Origin: Methanogenium marinum
Lineage (GTDB): Archaea > Halobacteriota > Methanomicrobia > Methanomicrobiales > Methanomicrobiaceae
Reading direction: 5' to 3'
Length of the DNA: 64,000 nucleotides
Assembly (NCBI RefSeq): GCF_028912405.1
Contig: NZ_JAKELO010000002.1
Span: 1,497,276 to 1,561,275 of the forward strand
Each line of letters starts with the position of its first letter. Position 1 is the stretch's first letter. The notes under the pieces are model-generated. The model was not told the origin of the DNA. It ran no database searches and saw nothing but the letters and a program-made list of their open reading frames with translations. The translations under genes were made by a program, and so were the position numbers. Of this stretch, positions 1 to 49,444 are shown in pieces.

Positions 1-1800
<1,800 letters not shown>

Positions 1801-5416: not shown

Positions 5417-6884
<1,468 letters not shown>

Positions 6885-6952
6885 AAAGATTGGGTTGATG
6901 CGGTTACTAAATAAAACGTAAAATTGCTGATGTCGACATAATATGGGAACTT

Positions 6953-7025
6953 GGGCTTATAGCTCAGTTGGAAGAGCGCGGCGTTTGCAACGCCGAGGCC
7001 AGGGGTTCAAATCCCCTTAAGTCCA
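6953..7025 (+). tRNA. tRNA-Ala (anticodon TGC)
   Basis: A 73-nt cloverleaf in the 16S-23S spacer. The acceptor strands 'gggctta' and 'taagtcc' pair. The anticodon arm is 'cggcg-tttgcaa-cgccg', giving anticodon TGC, and the T-loop motif 'ggttcaaatcc' is present. The 3' CCA is not encoded, as is usual in archaea. A tRNA-Ala(TGC) in this spacer is the standard euryarchaeal arrangement. Confidence 0.97.
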
Positions 7026-7026
7026 T

Positions 7027-7077
7027 TGCCTGGTTTTCAGAGCTGTCATTCGTGACATATTCTTCTGAACACCAGGC
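7027..7077 (+). other. Spacer hairpin after tRNA-Ala
   Basis: 'gcctggttttcaga' (about 7028-7041) and 'tctgaacaccaggc' (about 7062-7075) can form a near-perfect 14-bp stem with one T-T mismatch. It directly follows the tRNA and probably acts in separating the tRNA from pre-23S during processing. That role is an inference. Confidence 0.5.
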
Positions 7078-7140
7078 CTCCCAATGCACCCGGCGACGTG
7101 AGTCATCGGGGAAGGGCCGAGAGTCTAACCGACTCATTGA

Positions 7141-7189
7141 GGCTGTGTATAGGTGTGCACATAGGACGTTAAATGAGTTTTAACGGACA
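7141..7189 (+). other. 5' strand of the 23S processing stem
   Basis: 'gagttttaacggac' (7175-7188) is the exact reverse complement of 'gtccgttaaaactc' at 10137-10150. Further out, 'ggtgtgcaca' (near 7150) pairs with 'tgtgcacacc' behind the 23S, and 'ctgtgtat' pairs with 'atatacag'. The unpaired stretch between the two helical parts is where an archaeal bulge-helix-bulge cleavage site would lie. The helix is seen in the sequence; the cleavage is known archaeal biology. Confidence 0.75.
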
Positions 7190-10136
<2,947 letters not shown>

Positions 10137-10186
10137 GTCCGTTAAAACTCAGACGAAATTCTGTGTGCACACCACAAACATATACA
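10137..10186 (+). other. 3' strand of the 23S processing stem
   Basis: 'gtccgttaaaactc' begins right after the mature 23S and is followed by 'tgtgtgcacacc' and 'atatacag'. All three pair with the leader before the 23S. The same sequence follows the other 23S copy at 1801-1850. Confidence 0.75.
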
Positions 10187-10193
10187 GTGTCAT

Positions 10194-10318
10194 GTATTTG
10201 CGGCCATAGCAGCGGGGCAACACCCGGACCCATACCGAACCCGGAAGTTAAGCCCGTTCACGTAGTATGCTGTACTGAGTTGCGCGAGCGCTCGGGAACC
10301 ATACTTCGCTGCAAATGC
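10194..10318 (+). rRNA. 5S ribosomal RNA (operon B)
   Basis: Identical to the 5S gene of operon A, with the same helix I ends. It stands 57 nt behind the 23S and is co-transcribed with it by arrangement. Confidence 0.96.
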
Positions 10319-10319
10319 T

Positions 10320-10575
10320 CTGAAAAGCAAATTAAAATCTGTTCTGTAACTGTATTATACAAAAGAGCGTGAGCTCTTGTGTTGATTCTGACTCGTTCCT
10401 GCACATTCTTGGTAGTGAAATGTATAGCATTCTGTTCTGTATATACTATACAAAAGAGCGTGAGTGTTTGAAATGATATTTCGCTATGAATGGTTGTGAT
10501 GAATGAATTTTTTTGTTTTGTATCTGTGATATACTTCGTAGCGATAGCTACAGTGGATGATTGTTCTCTACTCAG
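10320..10575 (+). repeat. Short version of the 5S-like repeat array
   Basis: Two units are copied from the array behind operon A (GTGA tetraloops at 10369-10372 and 10460-10463), with one base difference (position 10450 against 2114). Identity with operon A stops after 10486. A third, diverged unit may follow: 'gtatctgtgatatac' then a perfect hairpin 'gtagc-gata-gctac' with its loop at 10543, 83 nt after the previous loop. Confidence 0.6.
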
Positions 10576-10825: not shown

Positions 10826-11674
10826 TTACCATCCAGAAAACAGGATAATTCTCCACTCTTTATTCAGGTATGACACAGTATCCCATTCAGCATGCTTTTT
10901 TACCAAATCTGTGGTATCTGTTGGAGATTTGTAGAATGTGTATTCACCGGTTCCTGCAGTATTTGCAGAAATATCCTTTCCCAATGCCTGAAGGCTCCGA
11001 TAGTTTGTAAAAGGAATGTCATTAAAGAGATTCTTTCCTATCTGGGCTGCATCCTGATCATAGAGAATAAATCCATCCGGCTGCATGATTGTTACTGTTA
11101 TGCCCTTCTCTTCTTCAACTGGATTAACAATTTTTCCAACAAATATTGAAGGTTCGGCCATTACAAGGACACTACCTTTGTATTCTCCATCTTCTGAATA
11201 AACAGGCCAGGCTATTTCTATTCCCGTAAATCCTTCTTCTGCGGTGAATGCATCTGAGAGAAATGGTTCACGTTTCTTGATAATAGTCTTCCCCGGTTCA
11301 CTTCCGCCAATGTTAATTCCGACTGAATTGGAATATGTATCTGGTGCAACGGCGGTAATTGTGCCATTTTGGTCAATAGTAGCATACGAGAGAGCATATT
11401 CGGATCCAGAAAGCAGATCATTCAGAACTGGTTGTACCTCCGGTGTAGACATTAAATCGGCTGAAGAGAGTGCCTGGGCGGCATTCTCTGCAGAATCTCC
11501 AATAGAGGTAAGAACAGTTTCGATATTTGAGTTCATATATTCGAGGTCACTCATACTCGTGTTCTCTTCTTTACCTTGTTCAGTTGGAAAAAAGTATGGT
11601 GCTGCAAGAAGAATGCATGCTATCGCAGCAATGAGAAGTAGTATCGATATAGGCAGGATTTCATGCCGGTTCAT
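10826..11674 (-). CDS. Membrane-anchored Cache-domain sensor protein
   Basis: 282 residues. An N-terminal hydrophobic segment (about 8-28, 'ISILLLIAAIACILLAAPYF') anchors the protein. The rest is predicted extracytoplasmic and resembles a dCache sensor domain, with 'YALSYATIDQNGTITAV' and 'TGIEIAWPVYSEDGEYKGS', which are typical first-lobe Cache strands. The family normally senses small molecules such as amino or carboxylic acids as the input domain of chemoreceptors and kinases. Here no kinase, HAMP or methyl-accepting domain follows, so it is a stand-alone sensor or binding protein. It sits tail-to-tail behind rRNA operon B, and a decayed paralogue lies in the same place behind operon A. 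The ligand is unknown. Confidence 0.8.
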   Translation of the reverse strand: MNRHEILPISILLLIAAIACILLAAPYFFPTEQGKEENTSMSDLEYMNSNIETVLTSIGDSAENAAQALSSADLMSTPEVQPVLNDLLSGSEYALSYATIDQNGTITAVAPDTYSNSVGINIGGSEPGKTIIKKREPFLSDAFTAEEGFTGIEIAWPVYSEDGEYKGSVLVMAEPSIFVGKIVNPVEEEKGITVTIMQPDGFILYDQDAAQIGKNLFNDIPFTNYRSLQALGKDISANTAGTGEYTFYKSPTDTTDLVKKHAEWDTVSYLNKEWRIILFSGW

Positions 11675-12002
11675 AGTATATACTTATTTTTCAACGGTAA
11701 TTATTGGTGTTGCATATTCATCCCATTGGCAATTGATGATAACATCAGGATAGGATCCTCTGGTATCTCTCCCCATGTGACAAATTTCACAGAGATTCAC
11801 CTATCTCATGTAACCTATTTCTCTCAAGACAAACGTAGATATCAGTTGTGAACAAGAAGAGTGCAGTGTGGATGATTTGTATACTGCATTCAAACCTTGT
11901 GTTTTGGTATCTTTCTGCAACACAGGTGTCCTGTTTGTTATTCACAATTAAACTGGCAGGAAGTACATGACTGTAGTCGTGGGTAGTTGACAGGTGGCAT
12001 TA
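11675..12002. other. Divergent promoter region, Cache gene and csx1-like gene
   Basis: 328 bp between two divergent genes. An A/T-rich stretch with 'agtatatact' on the minus strand is right upstream of the Cache gene start. On the plus side 'aggtgg' (11992-11997) serves as ribosome-binding site for the next gene. Nothing else is recognised. Confidence 0.4.
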
Positions 12003-13235
12003 ATGAAACTGATATCATTTTTGGGAGGGCGAGAGGACGGGACTACGTTGTATACCTGCGGTGGTTCATCCTGTAAAACCCTGTTTGTGCAGGAGGCAAT
12101 CTGCCGCCTGTTTGGAACAGTAGACCATGCTGTCCTTTTTGCGACTGAAGATGCCCGTGAGGTTGCATGGAATCAGGTTTCAGCTGCCCTTTCCGGCTGC
12201 GGGATTAATTCGGAATTGATTGTTATCCCTAACGGGGAGACCGAAAATGAACTGTGGGAAATATTTCGAGTGCTCGAAAACTGCATTGATGAAGAAGATG
12301 AGATCGCTTTTGATATCACCCACGGGTTTCGCTCTCTTCTTCTGGTTGGGTTTCTTTCAGCAGCCTTTCTGCGAACAACAGGAAAAGCAAAGATTTCCCA
12401 TGTCTTTTATGGCCAGCACCGGGACAATGGGCAACCATCTCCCCTTCTGGACCTGACGCCCTTTCTTTCTATTCTGGACTGGACTACTGGGGTGCACGCT
12501 TTTTTACGGTCCATGGATGCATCTGGCATAAACCGTCTTGCAAATCAGACGGTAAAAGAAGCCTATCTCTCCGGGCGACCGGATGTCCCGGAAAAACTCT
12601 CCCGTTTTGCCCAGACTTTGGAGGGGTTTGCGGTTGCCACAAGGATGGCACGCCCGGTTGATGCCCTGAACTTTGCATCCGGCATTTCGCGAGACATTGA
12701 TGAGGTAGCACATGAGATGGAGGTTTTCACCCCGCCCCTTGTGGAGGTCCTCGATGAAATTCGCATGGTGGGCGACCTTGGGATCCGCAGGCCGGAAGAG
12801 GAAGAGGGACTGACGTGGGGTCATGTCGAAAAAGAACTTGCTCTTATCGGGTTTATGGTTGAACACGGACTCCTGCTCCAGGGGGTGACTTTTTCCCGGG
12901 AGTGGATGGTAAATGTCATGCTCCTGACACATTATGGAGACGGGTATCGCGGCTGGCTGAATTCCGATACCCGGTATGAGATGTCACAGACCTTTGGGGC
13001 TGCGATCCTGAACCTGAAAGGTTCACCATACAATCCGACGGTATTCACTGACTGGTACACACTGCTCCCCTGTGAGGAGCAAGCAACACATCTCTGGGCA
13101 GAACTTTCAACCATAAGAAATGACTTTGCCCACTGTGGCATGCGGGAGTATTCCCCGCGAACGACACGGCTGAGGCAGAAGGCAGAGGAATTGTGTGGAC
13201 ATCTGTGTGTGTTTTTTGACCTGGTGCGGGGGTGA
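12003..13235 (+). CDS. Csx1-like CARF-HEPN ribonuclease (CRISPR-associated DxTHG protein)
   Basis: 410 residues. The N-terminal half is a CARF-type (Rossmann-like) domain with the 'DITHGF' motif (about 104-109) that names the DxTHG family of type III CRISPR-associated proteins. The C-terminus carries 'RNDFAH' (R372-H377), the RX4H active-site motif of HEPN ribonucleases. In this family cyclic oligoadenylate made by Cas10 binds the CARF domain and switches on RNA cleavage. I prefer the ATG at 12003 with the ribosome-binding site 'aggtgg' just upstream; a GTG nine bases earlier is possible. No CRISPR array, cas10 or other cas gene lies in this window, so the activating complex must be elsewhere or lost. 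Confidence 0.85.
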   Translation: MKLISFLGGREDGTTLYTCGGSSCKTLFVQEAICRLFGTVDHAVLFATEDAREVAWNQVSAALSGCGINSELIVIPNGETENELWEIFRVLENCIDEEDEIAFDITHGFRSLLLVGFLSAAFLRTTGKAKISHVFYGQHRDNGQPSPLLDLTPFLSILDWTTGVHAFLRSMDASGINRLANQTVKEAYLSGRPDVPEKLSRFAQTLEGFAVATRMARPVDALNFASGISRDIDEVAHEMEVFTPPLVEVLDEIRMVGDLGIRRPEEEEGLTWGHVEKELALIGFMVEHGLLLQGVTFSREWMVNVMLLTHYGDGYRGWLNSDTRYEMSQTFGAAILNLKGSPYNPTVFTDWYTLLPCEEQATHLWAELSTIRNDFAHCGMREYSPRTTRLRQKAEELCGHLCVFFDLVRG

Positions 13236-14559: not shown

Positions 14560-14874
14560 TTATCCCAGCACTGCAAGTGCCTCTTCTCCGGTCATTCCCA
14601 CCCGGACACCTTTCTCTTCTGCGGGGGCATTTGCCTCTTTAATGTTTCCCCGCAGGAGGTATTCTGCGGTTGCAATCGATGTCTGCCCTTCTGGCGGGCG
14701 GATACGGGCCGCTGCATAACCGAAACTGGCAAGAGCTGCCACATCAATTGCACCACAACCAACGAGGCCATGTTCGTTTGCGGCAAAGACAATATTGACC
14801 GGGCCTGCGGGGATTATGGAGCAGACAAATTCTTTCACTCCAATGTTGATCTTCTCGTCTGTCATGGAAGACAT
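14560..14874 (-). CDS. DUF1805 domain protein
   Basis: 104 residues. The sequence pattern 'GLVGCGAIDVAALASFGYAAA' followed by 'EYLLRGNIKEANAPAEEKGV' and 'GMTGEEALAVL' fits the DUF1805 family (Bacillus YunC-like), small proteins of unknown function found in archaea and bacilli. The start is supported by 'ggagg' five bases before the ATG. It is the last gene of a minus-strand run that follows recQ, with about 100 bp between them. Confidence 0.75.
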   Translation of the reverse strand: MSSMTDEKINIGVKEFVCSIIPAGPVNIVFAANEHGLVGCGAIDVAALASFGYAAARIRPPEGQTSIATAEYLLRGNIKEANAPAEEKGVRVGMTGEEALAVLG

Positions 14875-14980: not shown

Positions 14981-17071
14981 TTATTTCGGATTATTTTGTC
15001 GGTCCACCGCACAGGTGAGCCGGATATCAGTGTAGGTGAACCGCTCGCCAAGAACTGTTTTCAGTCGCCGGAGATCGTGTGTCCCTTCCTGTGCCACTGC
15101 CTCTCGGATGGCTGCCTGCCGGTGGGGAGAGATGAGGTCATCTATCTCCACGTTCTCACCGTTCTCTATGGCTTCTGCAAGATGGGCGCCACAGATATCA
15201 GGGGTTAGGGAACGCTTCTCTGCAATTTCTGCCATCGTGCATCCGGCACGATAGAGGCGCAGGGTCTCTGCCGCTGAATTGTCTCCCTCTTTTTCTGTTG
15301 GTATCAGCGCTGCCATAAATTCTGGGCCAAACCGGTTCAATTTGGTCGCACCTACCCCTCTGATGGCGAGAAATGCAGCATCAGTTAACGGCCGCGAATT
15401 TACCATTTCCCGGAGTGTTACATCAGAGAAGATCATGTATGGGGCAATTCCCTCACGGTCTGCAATCTCCCGTCTGAGTGTCTTTAGCCTGATGAAGAGT
15501 GGGTCCGTTGGTTTTTCCTGTCTGATGTTGGGCGTCTTCTTCATTCGGGTTAAAAATACGCCTTCCACCGTTTCACCGGCGGCTAAAAGCTCTCTACCTG
15601 TCTCTCCAACGGTGAGCACCGGATAGACGCCGCTCTCACGTTCGAGATAGCCGAGGCGGATAAGTTCTCGGATAAATGAGCGCCATTCATCCTTTGAATA
15701 TGCCTTCCCTGCACCGTAACCGGGGGTTTCTTTCTGACCCATCTCACGTATCTTCTTTGTATTCGCCCCGCGGAGCAGATCGATAAGGTGGCTACTGCCG
15801 CAGGGAACGGTAAGATCCCGCACACAGGTGATAGCCATCTGTGCAACCGCTGTGCCATCGAAGCGTTCCCGTGGAGAACGACAGATATCACAGGTGCCAC
15901 ACCCTCCCACCGGGGTTTCTTCCCCGAAATATTGCAGGATCATTGCCTGCCGGCAACGGTGTTCCTCACAATAGGTGGCCATCTCCTCAAGTTTTGTATA
16001 CTCTGCCCGCTGCCGGGCAACAGATGACTCCTGCTGGATAAAAAATGCATGTCGGTGTAGGTCTCCTGCAGAATAGAAGAGAATGCAGTCTGCCGGGTCC
16101 CCGTCCCGTCCAGCCCTTCCTGTCTCCTGATAGTAATGTTCCGGCGAGCGGGGTAAGTCATGGTGGATAACAAATCGCACATCCGGCTTGTCAATGCCCA
16201 TCCCGAAGGCGACCGTTGCGACGATGACCTGCACGCGGTCACGGACAAATGCCTCCTGTGCCTCCTCCCGTGCCTTCCGGGTGAGGCCGGCGTGATAAGG
16301 CAGGGCACGGATGCCGGTGCGGCGGAGTGTGTTAGATAGTTCTTCTACTCCTTTGCGGCTGAGGCAGTAGATAATCCCCGCCTGCCCCTGGTGATTCCGG
16401 AGATAGGAGAGAATTGCCCCTTTCGTATCCTTCTTCGGTCTGACCTCATAGCGGAGGTTTTTGCGATAGAAACTACCCGTTACCCGATGGGGGTGGCGGA
16501 GGTGGAGTTGTGCGATGATATCGTTCTGTACGGCAGGGGTCGCGGTGGCCGTCAGTGCCACCACCGGTGCATGTGAAAACTCACGGATGAGACGGGAGAT
16601 TTCGCGGTATTCCGGCCGGAATTCATGTCCCCACTGTGAAATGCAGTGCGCCTCGTCAACAGCTATGAGGGTTACGTGTGCCTTCTTCAAAAGAGAGAAG
16701 AACTCTGTCTTCACCGCCCGTTCGGGTGAGACATAAAGTATTCGAAGATCCCCGTGGTAAATTGCTTCCTCTGTCTCCCGGCGTTCGCGGTAATCCTGTA
16801 GTGAGGTGATGCATGCGGCAGGTACTCCACATTCCCGGAGAGTATCCACCTGATCCTTCATCAGGGCAATCAGCGGTGATATGACGACTGTCATCCCGCC
16901 GGAGATCAGTGCTGGTATCTGGTAACAGAGGGATTTTCCACCGCCGGTGGCAATCACCCCCAACACATCCTCCCCGTCTGTAAGAGCACGGATGATCTCT
17001 TCCTGATACGGGTACAGAGATTCATATCCGAAGTACTGCCTCAGAACGGTGGTGACATCAGAAATCGGCAT
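14981..17071 (-). CDS. recQ: RecQ-type ATP-dependent DNA helicase
   Basis: 696 residues. A 3'-5' DNA helicase acting on forks and recombination intermediates. Walker A 'ATGGGKS' is at 41-47, the DEAH box at 139-142, motif III 'ALTATAT' at about 172-178, and motif VI 'QETGRAGRDG' at 315-324. The RecQ zinc-binding site is formed by Cys373 plus 'CGTCDIC' (391-397). An HRDC domain follows at about 524-591 ('RGVGATKLNRFGPEF'). The C-terminus (about 604-690) looks like a helix-turn-helix RQC/HTH_40 region with 'YRAGCTMAEIAEKRSLT'. This is a full bacterial-type RecQ, uncommon in archaea but known in Methanomicrobia. It is encoded a few genes from an AddAB-like nuclease pair. Confidence 0.95.
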   Translation of the reverse strand: MPISDVTTVLRQYFGYESLYPYQEEIIRALTDGEDVLGVIATGGGKSLCYQIPALISGGMTVVISPLIALMKDQVDTLRECGVPAACITSLQDYRERRETEEAIYHGDLRILYVSPERAVKTEFFSLLKKAHVTLIAVDEAHCISQWGHEFRPEYREISRLIREFSHAPVVALTATATPAVQNDIIAQLHLRHPHRVTGSFYRKNLRYEVRPKKDTKGAILSYLRNHQGQAGIIYCLSRKGVEELSNTLRRTGIRALPYHAGLTRKAREEAQEAFVRDRVQVIVATVAFGMGIDKPDVRFVIHHDLPRSPEHYYQETGRAGRDGDPADCILFYSAGDLHRHAFFIQQESSVARQRAEYTKLEEMATYCEEHRCRQAMILQYFGEETPVGGCGTCDICRSPRERFDGTAVAQMAITCVRDLTVPCGSSHLIDLLRGANTKKIREMGQKETPGYGAGKAYSKDEWRSFIRELIRLGYLERESGVYPVLTVGETGRELLAAGETVEGVFLTRMKKTPNIRQEKPTDPLFIRLKTLRREIADREGIAPYMIFSDVTLREMVNSRPLTDAAFLAIRGVGATKLNRFGPEFMAALIPTEKEGDNSAAETLRLYRAGCTMAEIAEKRSLTPDICGAHLAEAIENGENVEIDDLISPHRQAAIREAVAQEGTHDLRRLKTVLGERFTYTDIRLTCAVDRQNNPK

Positions 17072-21084: not shown

Positions 21085-24000
21085 TTACAGATGATGTGAC
21101 TTCACCTCAGCTTCGGCCTGTGCCGCAACTTTCTGTGCCATCACAATATCGGGAATAATATTCACCATTCTGTCTGTACGGGTGTAGTAAATGTATGTGT
21201 CAGGCATTATTCCTGTCAGGGAACAAACTGCATCAGCATAGATGGAGAGCTGGATGAGGTGCTCCTTTTTACAGGGACACTCCCCCGGGTCGGGTCCAGT
21301 TTTGTAATCAATTACCACATAGTGGTCGTCCTTCGTACGTATGATCTGGTCTATGGCACCCCGGACCATCCCATCACCGAACCGGTGGACAAATGCAACC
21401 TCGCACTGGTGCCAGATACTTTCACGAATGAGCGGTTGGGACAAGAAATGCCGTTTTGCAGTCTCCAAAGAGGCTGTCCGTTCTGCATCCGCTGTGAATC
21501 CATGGAGAATACAGGCACGGGCAGGGGACATGCCGGCAAAAACAGCATGGAGGAGGTCTCCTTCCCGTGCTGCAGCATTGTCTTTCTTTCCAGACTGTAG
21601 GGTACCGACAGGATCCTGTCCCGCACCAGCATTTCCGAAGGCATACCGGGAGATGGCGGTCACCGGGAGGGGCGGACATGGCGGTGCGACTGCAGGCAGG
21701 GGAGGTGCCGTCCATGCTGCATCTCTCCTGTCAGCAGGCAGGGGTTTGGTGATCGTTACCGGCACAGGCGGAGGTGAATTCTCCATTGCCACGCCATTTG
21801 TCTCAGTTGTGATGATTGGAATCCACCATTTCCGTCCGCCCGGCGTGGTGCAACCTGTACCCCCTTTCTCAATGGCATCCGGGGTGATGCCGAGGGCGGC
21901 AAACGTCCGGTGCATTCGTGTCTTCCCGGCGTCCGGCCCGAGGGCAACCATCTCCATATCCGGCAGTGTCCCGGATATAAGGATATGATCACGGGCCCGG
22001 GTGGCAGCCACATAAAAGAGACGACGTGCTTCTGCTGCTTCCTTCTGTTTGCGCCGGTGGCGGATCAGAAGAGATATAGGTGCGTCAACAGGTCCGCCCG
22101 TCTCCGCTATCTTTGTGGCAAGGCCCAGCCCCTCTTCAAAGACCATCCCGTTCTTCCGTCCACCACCGTCTGCATTTGCAAAGGGCAGGACAATAACCGG
22201 AAATTCCAGCCCCTTCGAGGCATGGACGGTCATCACGGAGACTGTATCATCATTTGCCGTTGGCAGTGGTGCATCCTCCTCTTTTGGTGCATTCCGTACT
22301 GATTTCGTAAGGTCTGTTGCAAAGTCATCGAACCCGTAGTATCCTGCAGATTCTCGTGAACGGGCGATTTCGGAAATTTTCCTGAGATTGGCTGTTTTTT
22401 GGTCACCATTATTCTGCCCGGCACAGACAGCGTACATGCCGGACTCCCGGAAAATGCGGGTGACAAGTGCTGAAGGCGGTTCCCGGCGTACATATGTCTG
22501 CCAGTGCCCAAGCATCCGGCAGGCATCCGCGGCAGGGCCGGTTGTGTTCTCCTGGATGCGGGAGAAGAGTCCCCGGCCATGTCCCCCGGTGGTATGGAAT
22601 ATATCCGCATCGGAGAGGCCAAAGAAAGGAGAGCGGAGGGCCCCGTATAGGGCGATGTCGTCGTTATTATCAGCAAGGAAGGCAATCACTGCCGCACAGT
22701 CCCGCACTTCCTGCCGTTCATAGAAGGCTGTGCCCCCGTGGATTTGGTAGGGCACTCCGATCCTGCAAAAGGCATCTTCTATGAGATGAAGCCGGCTTCG
22801 TGTCTCGATGAGAACCGCACAGTCTCCGAATGTGGCTGGCCTCTTGTTTGTCTTGCCTTCACTATTTTTATCATAGACGGTCTTTTTCTCTTTGCGAACC
22901 ATATCCACGAGCCATGCAGCGACAGCCTCAGCCTCAGCGAGGTGGCTTTCGCTACTTTTTTTCATAGAAGGAGTTATAAGAATCTCAGCTGAACCGGAAT
23001 GCTCCTTTCTGCTATCTGTCACCGCGAGAGAATTATATCCAAATTCCCATGGCTGTTGGTCAGCGCCAAGTATTGCAGAGAAGAGGGTGTTGACGAGCCC
23101 GATGATTTCCGGTGCGCTGCGGAAACTTGTGTCCAGTGCCACTTCCCGTCCTCCCCGTTCTGCAAGTATACGGTCGCGGGTTGCCTTGAACTGTGTCACA
23201 TCAGCGTTTCTAAAGAGATAAATGGACTGCTTCGGGTCACCGACAACAAAGAGGGAACGTTCTTTCCCTGCGGCAGTGAGGATATCCGAGATGATGGCTG
23301 CCTGCAGGGGGTCGGTGTCCTGGAATTCGTCCACCATGATGGCACGGTACTTTGCCGCGATGCTGTCCCGTGCCGTCGGATTCTCTGCAAGCAGGGCCTG
23401 GGTGCGGATGAGCATATCGCCAAAATCAATAGCCCCCCGCTGCGTTTTCATCCTTCCGATGGAATCAGAAAACCAGGAAAATGCGGTTCCGAGGGCCTGC
23501 AGTGTGTGGATAGTCTCTGCTGTCTTCGGGTCTTCCGGAGAAACGGTGAGTGTCAGCAGTCCCAATGAGTTGTCGTTTTCCCACTCCTTCAGGGCGCTGT
23601 ATGCTGTGATCAGACTTCTCTTCCCATCCTTCCCGAAGACCTTTGCACTCCCCATATTTTTACTTCCCTTGCAGGAGAGGATCCTGGCAAGGGCCTGACA
23701 GGTCTCTTTCGGACGGGTGGGGTCAAGGCTCTTCAGTCCGGGGACTGCCGTGGCGAGGTAGCGAGTCCCTGTATCTTCCTCTCCTGCAAATACTGTGGCC
23801 AGATCCATGAGCACATTTGCGGCTTCCCCTACAGGGGAGGCAAAGAACTGTGTACAGATATTTGCCTGTTCTGCCTCGATCTCCTTCATCCAGACATCAG
23901 TCAGGGCCTCTGGTGTATCTCTTACACAGTCAAAAAACCGGTCTGCATTCCATCGCTGGTCATAGAGGCTTATGATCATCTCCTGCATCTGCTGGATCCC

Positions 24001-24474
24001 GAAGGTTCGCAGACAGGTGAGGACTGCTGTTCTGACTGGTTCAGGCAACGGGGTGTAGAGGAGGCGGTAAAGTGTTTCTTCTGTCATCTCTGCGAGTTCA
24101 TAACTTTCAATGACGGCAAATCCGGGTTCCAGGCCGGCCTCGAGTGCATATTCCCGTAGAATTTTTGTGCAGAAGGAATGGATGGTTGAGATGCCGGCCC
24201 ACATAAGGTCATCACGGAAGCGGGCGGCATCTTCTCCTTCTGCTGTTGCAAGGGCCTGGCGGACTCGGTCCTTCATCTCGGCTGCCGCCTTCTCGGTGAA
24301 GGTGAGAGCTAAAATTTCCTGTACATCTGCCTGTTCGTCTCCCTCACGTTCGAGAAGGTCCAGATACCGGCTGACGAGGACATAGGTCTTTCCGGTTCCT
24401 GCTCCTGCTGTTACACAAAGGCTGCCTGGGCAGGTGATTGCGGTCTCCTGGACAGGGGTGCGTTGTGGTGGCAT
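21085..24474 (-). CDS. AddA-like UvrD-family helicase/nuclease
   Basis: 1129 residues. Superfamily 1A helicase with the AddA/RecB layout. Walker A 'AGAGTGKT' is at 23-30, then 'TFTEKAAAEMKDR' (motif Ia), 'VDEFQDTDPLQ' (motif II), 'VGDPKQSIYLFRNA' (motif III), 'TVHASKGLEFPVIVLP' (motif V) and 'RRLFYVAATRARDH' (motif VI). A C-terminal PD-(D/E)XK nuclease domain is marked by 'GAIDQII' and 'VVIDYKTG' near 1045-1070. With AddB it would resect double-strand breaks for recombination. It begins one base after the end of the AddB-like gene, so they form one operon. AddAB is a bacterial system, so this suggests old lateral transfer. Confidence 0.9.
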   Translation of the reverse strand: MPPQRTPVQETAITCPGSLCVTAGAGTGKTYVLVSRYLDLLEREGDEQADVQEILALTFTEKAAAEMKDRVRQALATAEGEDAARFRDDLMWAGISTIHSFCTKILREYALEAGLEPGFAVIESYELAEMTEETLYRLLYTPLPEPVRTAVLTCLRTFGIQQMQEMIISLYDQRWNADRFFDCVRDTPEALTDVWMKEIEAEQANICTQFFASPVGEAANVLMDLATVFAGEEDTGTRYLATAVPGLKSLDPTRPKETCQALARILSCKGSKNMGSAKVFGKDGKRSLITAYSALKEWENDNSLGLLTLTVSPEDPKTAETIHTLQALGTAFSWFSDSIGRMKTQRGAIDFGDMLIRTQALLAENPTARDSIAAKYRAIMVDEFQDTDPLQAAIISDILTAAGKERSLFVVGDPKQSIYLFRNADVTQFKATRDRILAERGGREVALDTSFRSAPEIIGLVNTLFSAILGADQQPWEFGYNSLAVTDSRKEHSGSAEILITPSMKKSSESHLAEAEAVAAWLVDMVRKEKKTVYDKNSEGKTNKRPATFGDCAVLIETRSRLHLIEDAFCRIGVPYQIHGGTAFYERQEVRDCAAVIAFLADNNDDIALYGALRSPFFGLSDADIFHTTGGHGRGLFSRIQENTTGPAADACRMLGHWQTYVRREPPSALVTRIFRESGMYAVCAGQNNGDQKTANLRKISEIARSRESAGYYGFDDFATDLTKSVRNAPKEEDAPLPTANDDTVSVMTVHASKGLEFPVIVLPFANADGGGRKNGMVFEEGLGLATKIAETGGPVDAPISLLIRHRRKQKEAAEARRLFYVAATRARDHILISGTLPDMEMVALGPDAGKTRMHRTFAALGITPDAIEKGGTGCTTPGGRKWWIPIITTETNGVAMENSPPPVPVTITKPLPADRRDAAWTAPPLPAVAPPCPPLPVTAISRYAFGNAGAGQDPVGTLQSGKKDNAAAREGDLLHAVFAGMSPARACILHGFTADAERTASLETAKRHFLSQPLIRESIWHQCEVAFVHRFGDGMVRGAIDQIIRTKDDHYVVIDYKTGPDPGECPCKKEHLIQLSIYADAVCSLTGIMPDTYIYYTRTDRMVNIIPDIVMAQKVAAQAEAEVKSHHL

Positions 24475-27400
24475 CTATGCATCCTCCCTGGTGCGGTCTG
24501 CTTCAAGAGTTCTGAGGATGCTGTTCCGGCAGATATGGGTATATTCGCAGTATCCGGGGCATTTGTCTGCATCCTGTGCAAGGGGGAAACGGCCGGTGCG
24601 AATGCCTGCGGTGGCATGGACTGCTGCAGTCACTGCATTGGCAATAATTTCCGGAAAAGGGGGTGCGCCTTTTTTCATCCGTTTCACTTGGTAGGGGTCA
24701 AGGGAGCCTGCGTAGCGGTCGTCATGAACGACCACACTGTTCACTACTCCCCGTCGTTTCATCTCATAATAGGACGCACCTGCTCCGGCAGCCCCGGTGA
24801 TCACTTCGAGGGCCCTTACATAGAGGGCCAGCTGGAGGGCTTCTCCTGCAAGAATGTCCTTCTGTTTTGGGTGATATCCGGTCTTATAGTCTGTGATAAG
24901 AAATGTTCCGTCTGCCATCATGTCTACCCTGTCGATAAATCCCTGAAGGAGAAGTGGATATTCCTGTTCCGGAACCGGCAGGGCAGCGGGGGCATCCTGG
25001 ATACTGCCCGGACGGTTGGGGGTCCCGAATCCGGCCTCAAAGAGGGATGGTACAAAAAGAGATGCCTGTGTTTCTCCCTCCCGGTTGATGAACTCTTCAA
25101 AGAGTCCTGGTCCTAATCCGTCTGTGCCGAGGAAGGCCTCAACCCCGGCCTCCCATGCAGCACCGCGGCGGGCATAACGGTCCAGCACCGTCTCTGCCTC
25201 TGCCAGAATGCTGGCCGTCGCCTCTTTTTGTTCTTCCTGTCCGGGGCCGGCGTTGTGGTTTTGCATCCAGTCATGGTAAAAGTGCTGGCAGACTTCGTGA
25301 ACGATGGTTCCGTACGCAGTGGCTGAGATGTCTCGTTCCTCTTCCGGAAGGGGCTTTATGCCCAGCACATGTCGAAGATAAAAACGGAACGGACAGGTGA
25401 CGTAGTCCTCCAGTGTGGTTGCCGACCAGATGGTATCTTCAGGGTAACGCTCAGCAAGCATCCGGGAAATATCCGTGTCTGCGTCAAGCATACCGTCAAA
25501 GGAGGAATCACACATTCCATGGCGATGATACTCCTCTGTTGTGATGCGGGCGGCCACTGAATCGGCGGTGACACCCTCCGGCAACCAGAGTGAAGGCGGG
25601 TAAAATCCAGCTCTCACGCTCTGTCCGGCCCGTTCCATTCGGCTCTCTCCTGATGCCGGCATCTCTGTGCATTCCCACTCATCGTGGACTAAGGCACCTT
25701 TTGCTGCAGCATAAAATGGTGAGGGAATGAGCACCCCGCCGTCACTCTCTGCGTGACTGAGCCAGATTTTTTCTTTGGCACTCAGGAGGGCTGCAAGGAA
25801 ATAGTATCGTTCTTCCTGCAGTTTTTCACGCCGGCGCATCGTACCCATTGCACGCTCCTCCTGTTCGGTGGTATAGGGTAGAAGGGGGGGTATATCCGGC
25901 AACCGTCCGTCTGTGAGATCGGCGATGAAGACGACCGGCAGATGGAGTCCCTGAAGTTCCCGGATTCCACAAATCTGCACGGCATCAGGATTTGGTTCAT
26001 GTTCGGGGCGTGCATCTGTGGCTGCTGCCATGAGGACCGCAGTTGCCTCACGGATGGTCACTGCCGGTTCCTCCTCTCCGGGAGTACCTGCCATCCTGTC
26101 CAACAGATGGCTGAATTCATGCAAGGCTGATTTTTCGCGTTCTTCAACCGTTGCATCCTGGACGGGCGGGAAGTGTGGGGCATCCCATTTGATATAGAGA
26201 TCCCTGAGTGCCTGGATGTGGTCTGCTATCGGTTTGGGCTTCTCTAACAGTTGCAGGTCATGGATGAGGACAAAGACCGCCCGCTCTGTCTGTTCTGTCG
26301 CTGCAAGATCATTTGCCGCGGCTTTCTGGCGATAGGGTGGTATCGCAGGGTTTTCAGCCGTTTCTTTCAGCCGTTTCCTGAGGTGGGCAAATCCTTCTTC
26401 CCAGCGAGCCACCCCTCCCCTGATACCAGCCTCACAGGCCCGATGGTTCACTTCACTCCCGGAGATGGTATTTCCTTCTCCGTCACTGAAACGGAAGAAT
26501 GGCTGAGAGAAGAGGTTCACGATGGTCTGTCGTTCATAGCCTTCTGCGATCACCCGTAGTGGAAGAATGAGGGCCTGGACAAGTGGTTCCTGTGCAAGCG
26601 GCAGAGTGGCAGATGAGGCCATTGGGATACCAAAGTCGGAAAAAATTGCTGAAATACGTCCTTCTTCTGCCCGGATGTCCGGCAGGGCGACCGCGATATT
26701 TCCAGGTGGAGTGCCATTATGGATGAGATCAGTAATCTGCTGGGCCACTGCCCGCAACTCCGCCCTCCGGTTGGGAAATCTGCCGCAGGAGAGTGGCACT
26801 GGCGGAGTGAGTGCGGTGGTTTCGGAGAAAAGCCACTCTGGCCCGTCTCTGGTTTCTGCTGACCCTGGTGTAGTCTGACCAAAGATTGCCGGATTTGCCC
26901 CGGCTGGTGTGAATATCATCCACTGTCCCCCTGCGTCGGTGAGTGCCCGGAGAAAGCGTTCTGCCTCCGGCAGGGGTGCGTGGATGCCATAGATGCACCC
27001 GGAAAAATGAACCGGATAATGGGCGAGTGCATCTGCCGCAGCGCTGCATATTGAAGGGTTGTCCACCGCCCCCTCTGCGTCCAGGCGTGCCCGGTAATCT
27101 GCAAATATATTGCCTATAACCCGGTTCTTCTCTCCTGCGATGGTGCCGAGGCAGGTAGGATAGTCAATTCCGCGTTCGGTTATTACTCCAAAGAGGCGGG
27201 AAAGGTCCTGAACCAGACGTTGTCCTCCTTCCTTTCCGTTTGGAGTGAGGATGCCCCGGTTTGGGTGGGCACGGATTGCCTGGTGCATGATGACTCGTGC
27301 CTTCTCTGCAGGAATGATAGTCAGGTTCGGTGCAGCCCGGGCGAGGACAACCTTTGCCACATCAGTGGGGGTACCGGTAAGTGTGGGGATATGGGGGATG

Positions 27401-27567
27401 CCGCGGCTGCCCATCAGGTTACGCAGGGTGGATGCAAGACGGATTGTCGGCAGACAGAGGACTGCAGAAAACGGGTCTTCTGCTGCACATTCAGCGAAGA
27501 AATGGAGACATTCCTCTTGTTTATCCCCTGGTAAAACAGATATTTCCGTTCGTTTATCTGCGGTCAT
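24475..27567 (-). CDS. AddB-like nuclease subunit with iron-sulfur staple
   Basis: 1030 residues. The C-terminal PD-(D/E)XK nuclease domain has 'FIDRVDMMADG' and 'LITDYKTGYHPKQ'. It is held by a 4Fe-4S 'staple': one Cys upstream in 'YVTCPFRFYLRHVLG' and three at the end in 'CPGYCEYTHIC'. These are hallmarks of AddB/RexB. The N-terminal region should be a helicase-like fold, but the usual Walker A is not visible ('SVLPGDKQEE' stands where GxGKT would be), so ATP hydrolysis is probably left to AddA. It is encoded directly before the AddA-like gene with no gap. Confidence 0.88.
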   Translation of the reverse strand: MTADKRTEISVLPGDKQEECLHFFAECAAEDPFSAVLCLPTIRLASTLRNLMGSRGIPHIPTLTGTPTDVAKVVLARAAPNLTIIPAEKARVIMHQAIRAHPNRGILTPNGKEGGQRLVQDLSRLFGVITERGIDYPTCLGTIAGEKNRVIGNIFADYRARLDAEGAVDNPSICSAAADALAHYPVHFSGCIYGIHAPLPEAERFLRALTDAGGQWMIFTPAGANPAIFGQTTPGSAETRDGPEWLFSETTALTPPVPLSCGRFPNRRAELRAVAQQITDLIHNGTPPGNIAVALPDIRAEEGRISAIFSDFGIPMASSATLPLAQEPLVQALILPLRVIAEGYERQTIVNLFSQPFFRFSDGEGNTISGSEVNHRACEAGIRGGVARWEEGFAHLRKRLKETAENPAIPPYRQKAAANDLAATEQTERAVFVLIHDLQLLEKPKPIADHIQALRDLYIKWDAPHFPPVQDATVEEREKSALHEFSHLLDRMAGTPGEEEPAVTIREATAVLMAAATDARPEHEPNPDAVQICGIRELQGLHLPVVFIADLTDGRLPDIPPLLPYTTEQEERAMGTMRRREKLQEERYYFLAALLSAKEKIWLSHAESDGGVLIPSPFYAAAKGALVHDEWECTEMPASGESRMERAGQSVRAGFYPPSLWLPEGVTADSVAARITTEEYHRHGMCDSSFDGMLDADTDISRMLAERYPEDTIWSATTLEDYVTCPFRFYLRHVLGIKPLPEEERDISATAYGTIVHEVCQHFYHDWMQNHNAGPGQEEQKEATASILAEAETVLDRYARRGAAWEAGVEAFLGTDGLGPGLFEEFINREGETQASLFVPSLFEAGFGTPNRPGSIQDAPAALPVPEQEYPLLLQGFIDRVDMMADGTFLITDYKTGYHPKQKDILAGEALQLALYVRALEVITGAAGAGASYYEMKRRGVVNSVVVHDDRYAGSLDPYQVKRMKKGAPPFPEIIANAVTAAVHATAGIRTGRFPLAQDADKCPGYCEYTHICRNSILRTLEADRTREDA

Positions 27568-47511: not shown

Positions 47512-48426
47512 GTGGATTACCGGAATGTACGGAAAACACTCCTCATCACCCTTGTCCTGAACATCTCTGTTTCAGTGGCGAAGGGGGTAGTGGGTGCATG
47601 GGCTGGTTCTGTGAGTATGGTTGCAGATGCAGTCCATTCACTCTTTGATTCCGTATCCAACATCGTTGGCCTGATTGCTGTACGCATATCCGGAATGCCC
47701 CCTGATTTTGAACACCCATATGGCCATGGGAAATATGAGACCATGGGAGCACTGTTTGTTGGTGGGCTTCTCTTCCTCACGACAGGTATCGTTGCCTGGG
47801 AAGCATTGGGGCGGTTTTTTTCAGGATCTGTGCCACAGATCACTCTTCTTACTGTAGAGGTGATGCTTGCTACTATCTTCGTCAACCTTGGTGTTACCTG
47901 GTATGAACGCAGGGTTGGGAAAAAAGAGGGAAGTTCCTTTCTTCTTGCTGACGCGAAGCACACCTTCAGTGATGTAGGAGTCTCGGTATCGGTTCTCGTC
48001 GGTTTTCTTTTTATCCGTCTGGGATATCCGGTGGCTGATGCCGTGGTCGGGCTCATCATCGCTGCGGTAATCGGGAGGATGGGCGTGGAAGTTGTGAGAG
48101 ATGCAACGGGTGTTCTCACTGATCTACCGCCTGATGTTGATTATGAAGCGTTCTCTGCGATAATTATGAACACTCCGGGAGTTGTCGGGTATCATGAGAT
48201 CCGGTGCCGTGGGAAACCCGGAGAAATTTATTGTGATCTCCACGTCATCGTTGATGCCGGTATCACGGTACGGGAAGGTCACGATATTGTGGATCTGGTG
48301 CATGATCGCCTCATAGATGAATCTGCAGGCATTGTGGATGTGATCATTCACACAGACCCTGATGATGGTACATGCATACCAACAAACCTGCCGCCACACC
48401 GGCGTTCAGGGGATGGGCAGGGTTGA
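47512..48426 (+). CDS. Cation diffusion facilitator metal exporter 1
   Basis: 304 residues with six membrane segments in the N-terminal two thirds and a cytoplasmic metal-binding C-terminal domain. The transport-site motifs are 'DAVHSLFDSVSN' and 'DAKHTFSDV' (each HxxxD). Members export divalent ions such as zinc, cobalt, cadmium, iron or manganese. The GTG start is used. A very similar gene follows, and upstream bases ('ctgataatc' before the GTG) are conserved in both, showing tandem duplication. Confidence 0.92.
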   Translation: MDYRNVRKTLLITLVLNISVSVAKGVVGAWAGSVSMVADAVHSLFDSVSNIVGLIAVRISGMPPDFEHPYGHGKYETMGALFVGGLLFLTTGIVAWEALGRFFSGSVPQITLLTVEVMLATIFVNLGVTWYERRVGKKEGSSFLLADAKHTFSDVGVSVSVLVGFLFIRLGYPVADAVVGLIIAAVIGRMGVEVVRDATGVLTDLPPDVDYEAFSAIIMNTPGVVGYHEIRCRGKPGEIYCDLHVIVDAGITVREGHDIVDLVHDRLIDESAGIVDVIIHTDPDDGTCIPTNLPPHRRSGDGQG

Positions 48427-48526
48427 ATCCCATAAAAAACGGCCTGTGTTTGGCTGTACAGGTATTCCTGTGTTGCACCGTAAGAAAGCCTTATTTTATG
48501 CCGATTTAGAATCATTCTGATAATCT

Positions 48527-49444
48527 GTGAATTACTCGCGTGTCCGTAAGACTCTCATCCTCACCTTTTTCCTAAACCTTTGTGTATCTATTGCAAAAGG
48601 AATTGTCGGAGCACTTGCAGGCTCTGTGAGTATGGTGGCTGATGCAGTCCATTCGCTCTTTGATTCTGTCTCAAACATCGTTGGGCTCATCAGTATTTAT
48701 GTCGCCGATGCCCCACCGGATTCCCAACACCAGTATGGCCACGGCAAGTTTGAGACCATCGGGACACTGGTCGTTGGAATACTCCTTCTTATCACTGCAA
48801 CTTTTGTCGGATATGAGGGGTTTGGACGCTTCTTTTCCGGAGATGTTCCTGATATAACTCCACTCACGGTTGCAGTGATGGTTGGAACCATCTGTGTGAA
48901 TATCACCATCACCCTCTATGAACGCCGCGTGGGCAGAGAGGAGGAGAGTTCATTTCTGCTGGCTGATTCACAACACACCGCAAGCGACATCTTCGTTTCA
49001 CTCTCTGTTCTGGCTGGCTTTGTCTTTGTCAGTCTGGGGTATCCGGTTGCAGATGCCATCATTGCACTTGGGATTGCCGTACTCATTGGAAAGATGGGAG
49101 TGGAGATTCTCTATAATGCCGTTGAGGTGCTCGCTGACGCATCCGCTCCGGTTGATTATGACAAAATTGATGCAATTATGAATACAACGGAAGGCGTACG
49201 CAGCTATCATGATTTCCGGTGCCGGGGGAAACCAGGCGAGATTTTCTGTGATCTGCATGTGGTGGTTGACCCGGAGATAACCGTTCGTGAAGGTCATATC
49301 ATTGGCAACCGGGTCCGCGATCGTCTGAAAACGGAATTGGATGGTATGGTGGATGTTGTGGTGCATATCGATCCGTACAATAATGGTGTGAGACCACCTG
49401 ATGTTGAGAAAGATAGTGATAAGGATGCCCTGCATTCAAAATAG
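48527..49444 (+). CDS. Cation diffusion facilitator metal exporter 2
   Basis: 305 residues, a tandem paralogue of the preceding gene, alike over the whole length (roughly six residues in ten by eye). Metal-site motifs are 'DAVHSLFDSVSN' and 'DSQHTASDI'; Asp-Ala-Lys of copy 1 has become Asp-Ser-Gln, so metal preference may differ. GTG start. It has its own TATA-like 'ccttattttatg' near 48488. The ArsC-like gene begins 18 bp later. Confidence 0.92.
   Translation: MNYSRVRKTLILTFFLNLCVSIAKGIVGALAGSVSMVADAVHSLFDSVSNIVGLISIYVADAPPDSQHQYGHGKFETIGTLVVGILLLITATFVGYEGFGRFFSGDVPDITPLTVAVMVGTICVNITITLYERRVGREEESSFLLADSQHTASDIFVSLSVLAGFVFVSLGYPVADAIIALGIAVLIGKMGVEILYNAVEVLADASAPVDYDKIDAIMNTTEGVRSYHDFRCRGKPGEIFCDLHVVVDPEITVREGHIIGNRVRDRLKTELDGMVDVVVHIDPYNNGVRPPDVEKDSDKDALHSK

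Follow-up and report, generated by a model that had tools for sequence, protein, structure and literature searches.

A Csx1-type CARF-HEPN gene kept under purifying selection in Methanogenium genomes in which no sender was recognised

In the prevailing view, CARF effectors take their orders from Cas10. A gene of this kind in the archaeon Methanogenium marinum raises the question of what its product would listen to. It lies in 64,000 nucleotides of DNA (the window, G000:C2:1497276-1561275) that had been described in an initial annotation as devoid of CRISPR neighbours. That annotation proposed that the protein may act in trans, together with either a distant type III system or another nucleotide-signal source. 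The analysis presented here covered the window, its source genome (G000, 2.24 Mb in two contigs, rated 81% complete), a set of seven Methanogenium genomes and homologues across the order.

The protein and its surroundings

The annotation had read the gene as encoding a cyclic-oligoadenylate-controlled RNase of the CARF-HEPN type, on account of its DxTHG and RX4H motifs. Its features are the following:

11992-11997, + strand: AGGTGG, a putative ribosome-binding site 5 bases 5' of the ATG at 12003 (sequence)
12003-13235, + strand: CARF-HEPN ribonuclease gene of the Csx1/TIGR02221 family, 410 aa (ORF, NCBIfam and PADLOC profiles, AlphaFold2 model, fold matches)
12003-12497, + strand: CARF sensor domain, about residues 1-165, boundary approximate (model, fold matches to CARF domains)
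12312-12332, + strand: DITHGFR pocket motif, residues 104-110 (sequence, residue comparison with SyCsx1)
12798-13232, + strand: HEPN RNase domain, about residues 266-410, boundary approximate (model, fold matches)
13116-13133, + strand: RNDFAH, the HEPN RX4H active site, residues 372-377 (sequence, 35-row alignment)

The reading frame is uninterrupted over its 410 codons, and the DITHG core of the pocket motif occupies residues 104-108. In NCBIfam profile searches, the protein scored 87.9 bits with TIGR02221 (cut-off 76.25) and 29.6 bits with the DxTHG profile TIGR02549 (cut-off 21), while the best PADLOC model was CARF2--CARF_HEPN (1e-84), which spanned residues 1-404. Pfam gave no match, even with E<=10, and a phmmer search against the PDB returned just one chance antibody match. 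Homologues were aligned in 35 rows, made of 33 of the 40 matches in the order plus two bacterial loci (both pieces of the G008 gene, G199:C228, G205:C145, G213, G216:C60 and G206 were dropped), and R372, N373, A376 and H377 are invariant across them. The AlphaFold2 model derived from this alignment has a mean pLDDT of 91.5, and its closest solved fold is the cA4-bound Csx1-Crn2 of Marinitoga (8y7g_B; Z 22.0, rmsd 3.0, 383 residues aligned), followed by the Csx1 of S. islandicus (6qzt_A; Z 20.0). Both matches extend over the whole chain (model range 1..410), as in a Csx1 fold with CARF, linker and HEPN. By profile score, DxTHG, RX4-6H and full-length fold, the protein is a member of the Csx1/TIGR02221 family, as annotated.

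The predicted activity was considered in the light of SyCsx1 (Slr7061), a cA4-dependent ssRNA RNase from Synechocystis sp. PCC 6803 (PMC9676260). In that study, the mutations D114A, G118A, H117D, R120A and H388A weaken or abolish its cA4-driven RNase activity, with H117D nearly abolishing it. All five mutation-tested residues are present in the Methanogenium protein, as D104, H107, G108, R110 and H377 (equivalent to D114, H117, G118, R120 and H388). The annotated identity as a cyclic-oligoadenylate-controlled RNase is thus a prediction well supported by homology.

The absence of CRISPR neighbours was also confirmed within the 64 kb. No CRISPR array was detected, the sole clustered direct repeats being 34-nt repeats located behind each 5S gene, and profile models revealed no homologue of Cas10, CARF5 or Csm3 among the 59 ORFs of the window. 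The closest features around the gene are the following:

10826-11674, - strand: divergent neighbour with the sensor domain PF22309, common to G012 only and so not a constant partner
11826-11861, + strand: upstream block containing TAGATA, a putative promoter (conserved in five Methanogenium species)
14560-14874, - strand: DUF1805 protein (Pfam)
14981-17071, - strand: RecQ helicase, used as the marker of the fixed locus and as the dN/dS yardstick (Pfam, relatives' ORFs)

Several other traits of the window deserve mention on their own. It contains two tandem rRNA operons (1-1981 and 5417-10317) that match archaeal rRNA models, with the same pair of 34-nt repeats after each 5S gene (2017-2141 and 10353-10477). 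Two adjacent proteins, one UvrD-helicase/PD-(D/E)XK and the other a PD-(D/E)XK nuclease, form an AddAB-like pair in this archaeon (21085-27567), and cation-efflux transporters appear as tandem duplicates (47512-49444). A DUF1805 gene lies a few genes from the CARF-HEPN gene both here and in another genus, g36, possibly Methanospirillum (L073 11869-12171); the two lineages are not sisters, and the coincidence may be due to chance.

Candidate senders in the genome and the genus

The genome-wide search for cas10 that had been proposed as a check of the annotation spoke against a partnership with a type III system at some other place in this genome. The profile search found no Cas10 palm in the M. 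marinum genome, and neither Cas10 (PF22335 and a Csm1-type Cas10 model) nor the type III RAMP family (PF03787) was found in any of the seven Methanogenium genomes; the source genome, rated 81% complete, and two closed relatives of single contigs, G009 and G012, rated 99%, are in agreement, and the count of zero in seven still permits a Cas10 frequency of up to about 35% in the genus (95% bound). The ring-nuclease-like companion CARF5/Cas_NE0113, present in G019, G022 and G025, was likewise absent from all seven. With no cas10 or RAMP gene in the window or the genome, and no CARF5 companion, the gene does not stand as an ancillary effector of a type III locus.

It might be argued that the gene serves a type III system that was missed, either because the assembly is incomplete or because its Cas10 is unusual. 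The incompleteness of the source genome favours this possibility, and so does the patchy occurrence of Cas10, which was found in 3 of 28 genomes of the family and in 21 of 232 of the order. However, the two Cas10 models and the RAMP model drew a blank in the closed genomes too, and PF22335 picked up the Cas10 that neighbours the homologue in each of G022 and G025, indicating that the search is sensitive enough for the expected Cas10 type. A control search with PF22335 also matched in E. coli, where no Cas10 palm match would be expected, suggesting that this search over-reports rather than under-reports. A missed type III system is, therefore, considered very unlikely.

The second suggestion of the annotation, another nucleotide-signal source, survives as a reading with no candidate to fill it, since GGDEF (PF00990) and above-cut-off SMODS matches were absent from all seven genomes. 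Weak SMODS matches below the cut-off appeared in three of the seven, and a CBASS-type sender was discarded because the two that were tested fit NTP_transf_2 better. The 456-aa frame of one of these weak matches presumably resembles a CCA-adding enzyme.

The genome does have CRISPR equipment of its own. A type I-E operon and a 93-repeat array (counted at up to five mismatches in a 20-kb stretch) are found at G000:C2:718000-738000, about 780 kb from the CARF-HEPN gene, with Cas3, Cse1, a Cas6e-like protein and Cas1 recognised by Pfam and Cas7e, Cas5e and Cas2e by PADLOC. The operon is complete, with the long array after it and a group of five repeats before cas3 (L006 877-16350). Cas1 is found at two sites, in this operon and as a solo gene (L004 13799-14785; G000:C2:1928933), and around the latter no other cas genes were noticed and no array was found in a 20-kb stretch.

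Conservation, relatives and origin

The gene is intact, under purifying selection and at a fixed locus. It was found in five of the seven Methanogenium genomes (G000, G009, G010, G012 and, frameshifted and in two pieces, G008, which is M. cariaci), whereas the homologue search found none in G011 and G013; in the family, 8 of 28 genomes have a homologue. RecQ lies downstream in G000, G009, G012 and G008, the contig ending at that point in G010, and an rRNA operon occupies the opposite flank in G000, G009 and G012, where, in the relatives, it was recognised from ORFs in common within the rRNA genes. Upstream, the neighbouring gene is variable. Genes for response regulators adjoin the gene in G009, G012 and G022 but were rejected as partners: the two tested, from G009 and G022, differ in domain make-up, and the G009 one has no remnant in the window.

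As calculated by NG86 on the intact copies, whole-gene dN/dS ranges from 0.108 to 0.143 in all six pairs of four species, compared with 0.108-0.134 for RecQ in all three pairs, and the values by domain are 0.124-0.139 for CARF and 0.107-0.139 for HEPN. When neutral evolution of a 410-codon frame was simulated, it remained stop-free in 0 of 1000 cases at 0.35 substitutions per site and in 3 of 1000 at 0.2. All four intact copies retain DITHG(F/Y)RS in the pocket and RNDFAH in the HEPN site, and the block at 11826-11861 is better conserved than the remaining upstream region in the five species.

These figures bear on the view of the gene as the decaying remains of a type III locus that has been lost, devoid of present function. 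Its absence from two of seven genomes and the frameshift in M. cariaci fit such a view, and they indicate that the gene is either dispensable or lost to assembly gaps. However, RecQ is also split in M. cariaci, a genome rated 59% complete, so these breaks may be assembly errors; moreover, a dN/dS equal to that of RecQ and the conserved upstream block speak against decay. We regard this explanation as extremely unlikely.

Across the order, 31 of 232 genomes contain a homologue, with a Cas10 palm match in 10 of these 31 and none in 21; among the genomes at least 90% complete with a homologue, 13 of 19 have no such match. H107 and R110 are kept in all five copies located within 7.5 kb of Cas10 and in two copies 21-23 kb away from it. 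A different picture emerged from genus g36, in which nine unlinked copies share one locus (L073, L074, L075, L076, L081, L082, L083, L085 and L086), here called the metabolic locus: a ketol-acid reductoisomerase gene stands on one side in eight of the nine and a glycosyltransferase gene on the other, also in eight, the contig of the ninth ending each time (flanks were named by Pfam for G201 only, and by likeness for the others). In all nine, A, S or D replaces H107, and the HEPN site is kept as RN(D/N)LAHCGM. Because four of these nine genomes (G197, G204, G205 and G208) carry Cas10 elsewhere, the loss of the pocket follows the locus and not the genome. The g36 copies appear, from their sequences, to be a second lineage of separate derivation, in which the sensor has degenerated and the HEPN site is intact. 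The pocket motif is also altered in six further rows (g38), G196 and G129. On the tree, the H107+R110 trait needs two changes, and the THG+R trait needs four, although the latter also counts THA variants; it is accordingly not claimed that other lineages lost the pocket repeatedly and independently, as the H107+R110 trait is compatible with one origin. A tail-to-tail pair of divergent CARF-HEPN genes (DITHGFRS and DITHAYRF) was observed in G197 (L044 1498-4024), about 22 kb from a Cas10, and also in G199 and G202.

The metabolic-locus copies illustrate what may be expected of an enzyme cast adrift from its sender, that is, an RNase kept for some other purpose whose CARF domain is deaf to cyclic oligoadenylate, and that is maybe weakly constitutive or senses another metabolite. 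The nine g36 copies, which lack the very histidine whose change to Asp (H117D) nearly abolished SyCsx1 activity (PMC9676260), lend weight to this explanation, as does VC1899, an orphan CARF protein with weak RNase activity that is not regulated by cA4 (PMC7969007). In contrast, the Methanogenium copies have an intact DITHG(F/Y)RS in four of four cases. Of the 39 CARF positions that are invariant among five linked copies, they keep 34-38 and the metabolic-locus copies 23-29; the linked copies include the sister row G025, and without it the comparison reads 35-41 versus 25-32 of 48. The lowest conservation was that of G012, which deviates at five of the 39. For Methanogenium, the cast-adrift enzyme is rather unlikely, and the genus is the exception in the order: an unlinked copy, Cas10 not found, and an intact pocket.

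Regarding the origin of the gene, the Methanogenium copies form one branch (support 100/100), sister to G025 (100/99). A CARF5-type gene immediately precedes the homologue in G025, G019, G022 and G083, the two genes sharing 4 bases, and Cas10 lies 4.5-7.1 kb away in G025, G022 and G083 (5.7 kb in G025); in G019, Cas10 is missing and the contig ends close by, so this may be an assembly gap. The simplest history would be that one gene, parted from its CARF5 companion, was moved or left behind from a G025-like type III-A module. A common origin of the Methanogenium and the metabolic-locus unlinked copies was rejected, being 102 log-likelihood units worse (p-AU 4e-51), for a clade named after inspection of the tree and with some long branches. 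Carriage by viruses or plasmids was also discarded: no relative was found in 50,697 phage records or, with two peptide patterns only, in IMG/VR, and plasmid matches were distant (<60% identity, in 20 of 72,556 records). Cas10 A1 was not found in IMG/VR either, also with two patterns only.

Proposed role and comparison with known systems

Taken together, these observations make it reasonably probable that the gene encodes a functional receiver RNase of the Csx1 type and cA4 class that has outlived its sender. According to this model, the protein would dimerise, and the CARF pair would bind a small cyclic adenylate which, by homology, is most likely cA4. From what is established of Csx1 biochemistry, binding of cA4 across the CARF dimer would open the HEPN RX4H site, and the resulting indiscriminate cleavage of ssRNA may slow or stop the cell during infection. 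The sender would not be recognisably encoded in the genomes examined; the signal might come from type III systems present only intermittently, in some strains or on mobile elements, which seems slightly more likely, or from an unrecognised synthase. The bound of about 35% given above makes a receiver serving such passing type III systems possible. Against the model stand the missing or broken copies in three of the seven genomes and the five deviating CARF positions of G012; in addition, a strongly selected cA4 pocket is hard to explain when no sender has been found.

A different solution would be a cyclic-nucleotide alarm independent of Cas10, in which infection or stress would prompt an unrecognised synthase, unlike Cas10, GGDEF enzymes and CD-NTases, to produce cA4 or a similar molecule, and this single-gene receiver RNase would respond to it. 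An intact, selected pocket in a genome with type I-E and no known sender is the trace that such a pathway would leave, and yet we deem this solution unlikely.

Whichever the case, a genus with no detectable Cas10 and with a receiver and its pocket under selection is a clean setting in which to ask if the synthesis of cyclic oligoadenylates can occur independently of type III CRISPR. The order also offers a natural contrast between a pocket that is kept (Methanogenium) and one that has lost its histidine (the nine metabolic-locus copies), with the active site kept in both, so that purified proteins could be used to address the question. Even an ordinary answer would show that the receiver of a type III system can remain as a fixed gene of the chromosome once the sender is lost.

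The type of protein is already known, both as Csx1 CARF-HEPN and as orphan CARF genes, and as early as 2014 each of the CARF families was noted to include unlinked genes (PMC4012209); it is the intact sensor without a sender that makes the present case interesting. The literature searched on orphan or unlinked CARF, Csx1 and Csm6 genes, with the main 2020 CARF survey (doi 10.1093/nar/gkaa635) outside its scope, did not describe a genus-wide, intact-pocket copy without Cas10, which leaves absence from print unproven, and the accessible portions of PMC12669027, PMC11229360, PMC11645235 and PMC9704534 describe no such gene.

Among characterised proteins, SyCsx1 is a CARF-HEPN protein of the same TIGR02221 family (27.8% identity over 98% of the query), with identical pocket and HEPN residues, but it belongs to the pSYSA type III-D locus, beside a type III operon, whereas no type III genes were detected in the Methanogenium genome. 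The closest linked relative, the type III-A Csx1-like protein of Methanoculleus sp. SpSt-1176 (G025; contig DSBQ01000017.1), is 57% identical, and its gene has the CARF5/Cas_NE0113 overlap and the nearby Cas10 described above, neither of which was found in Methanogenium. The Csx1-Crn2 of Marinitoga (8y7g) and the S. islandicus Csx1 (6qzt) are the closest solved folds over the whole chain, although the former is fused to a Crn2 ring nuclease that the Methanogenium protein does not have. Finally, VC1899 of Vibrio cholerae is, like the Methanogenium protein, a CARF nuclease in a genome in which no type III system was found; PMC7969007 calls this orphan cast adrift and describes its pocket as unfit for cA4. 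It differs from the protein studied here in its CARF family and its nuclease, and the degenerate pocket of VC1899-like proteins is shared by the nine g36 copies, whereas the Methanogenium motif is intact in four of four intact copies.
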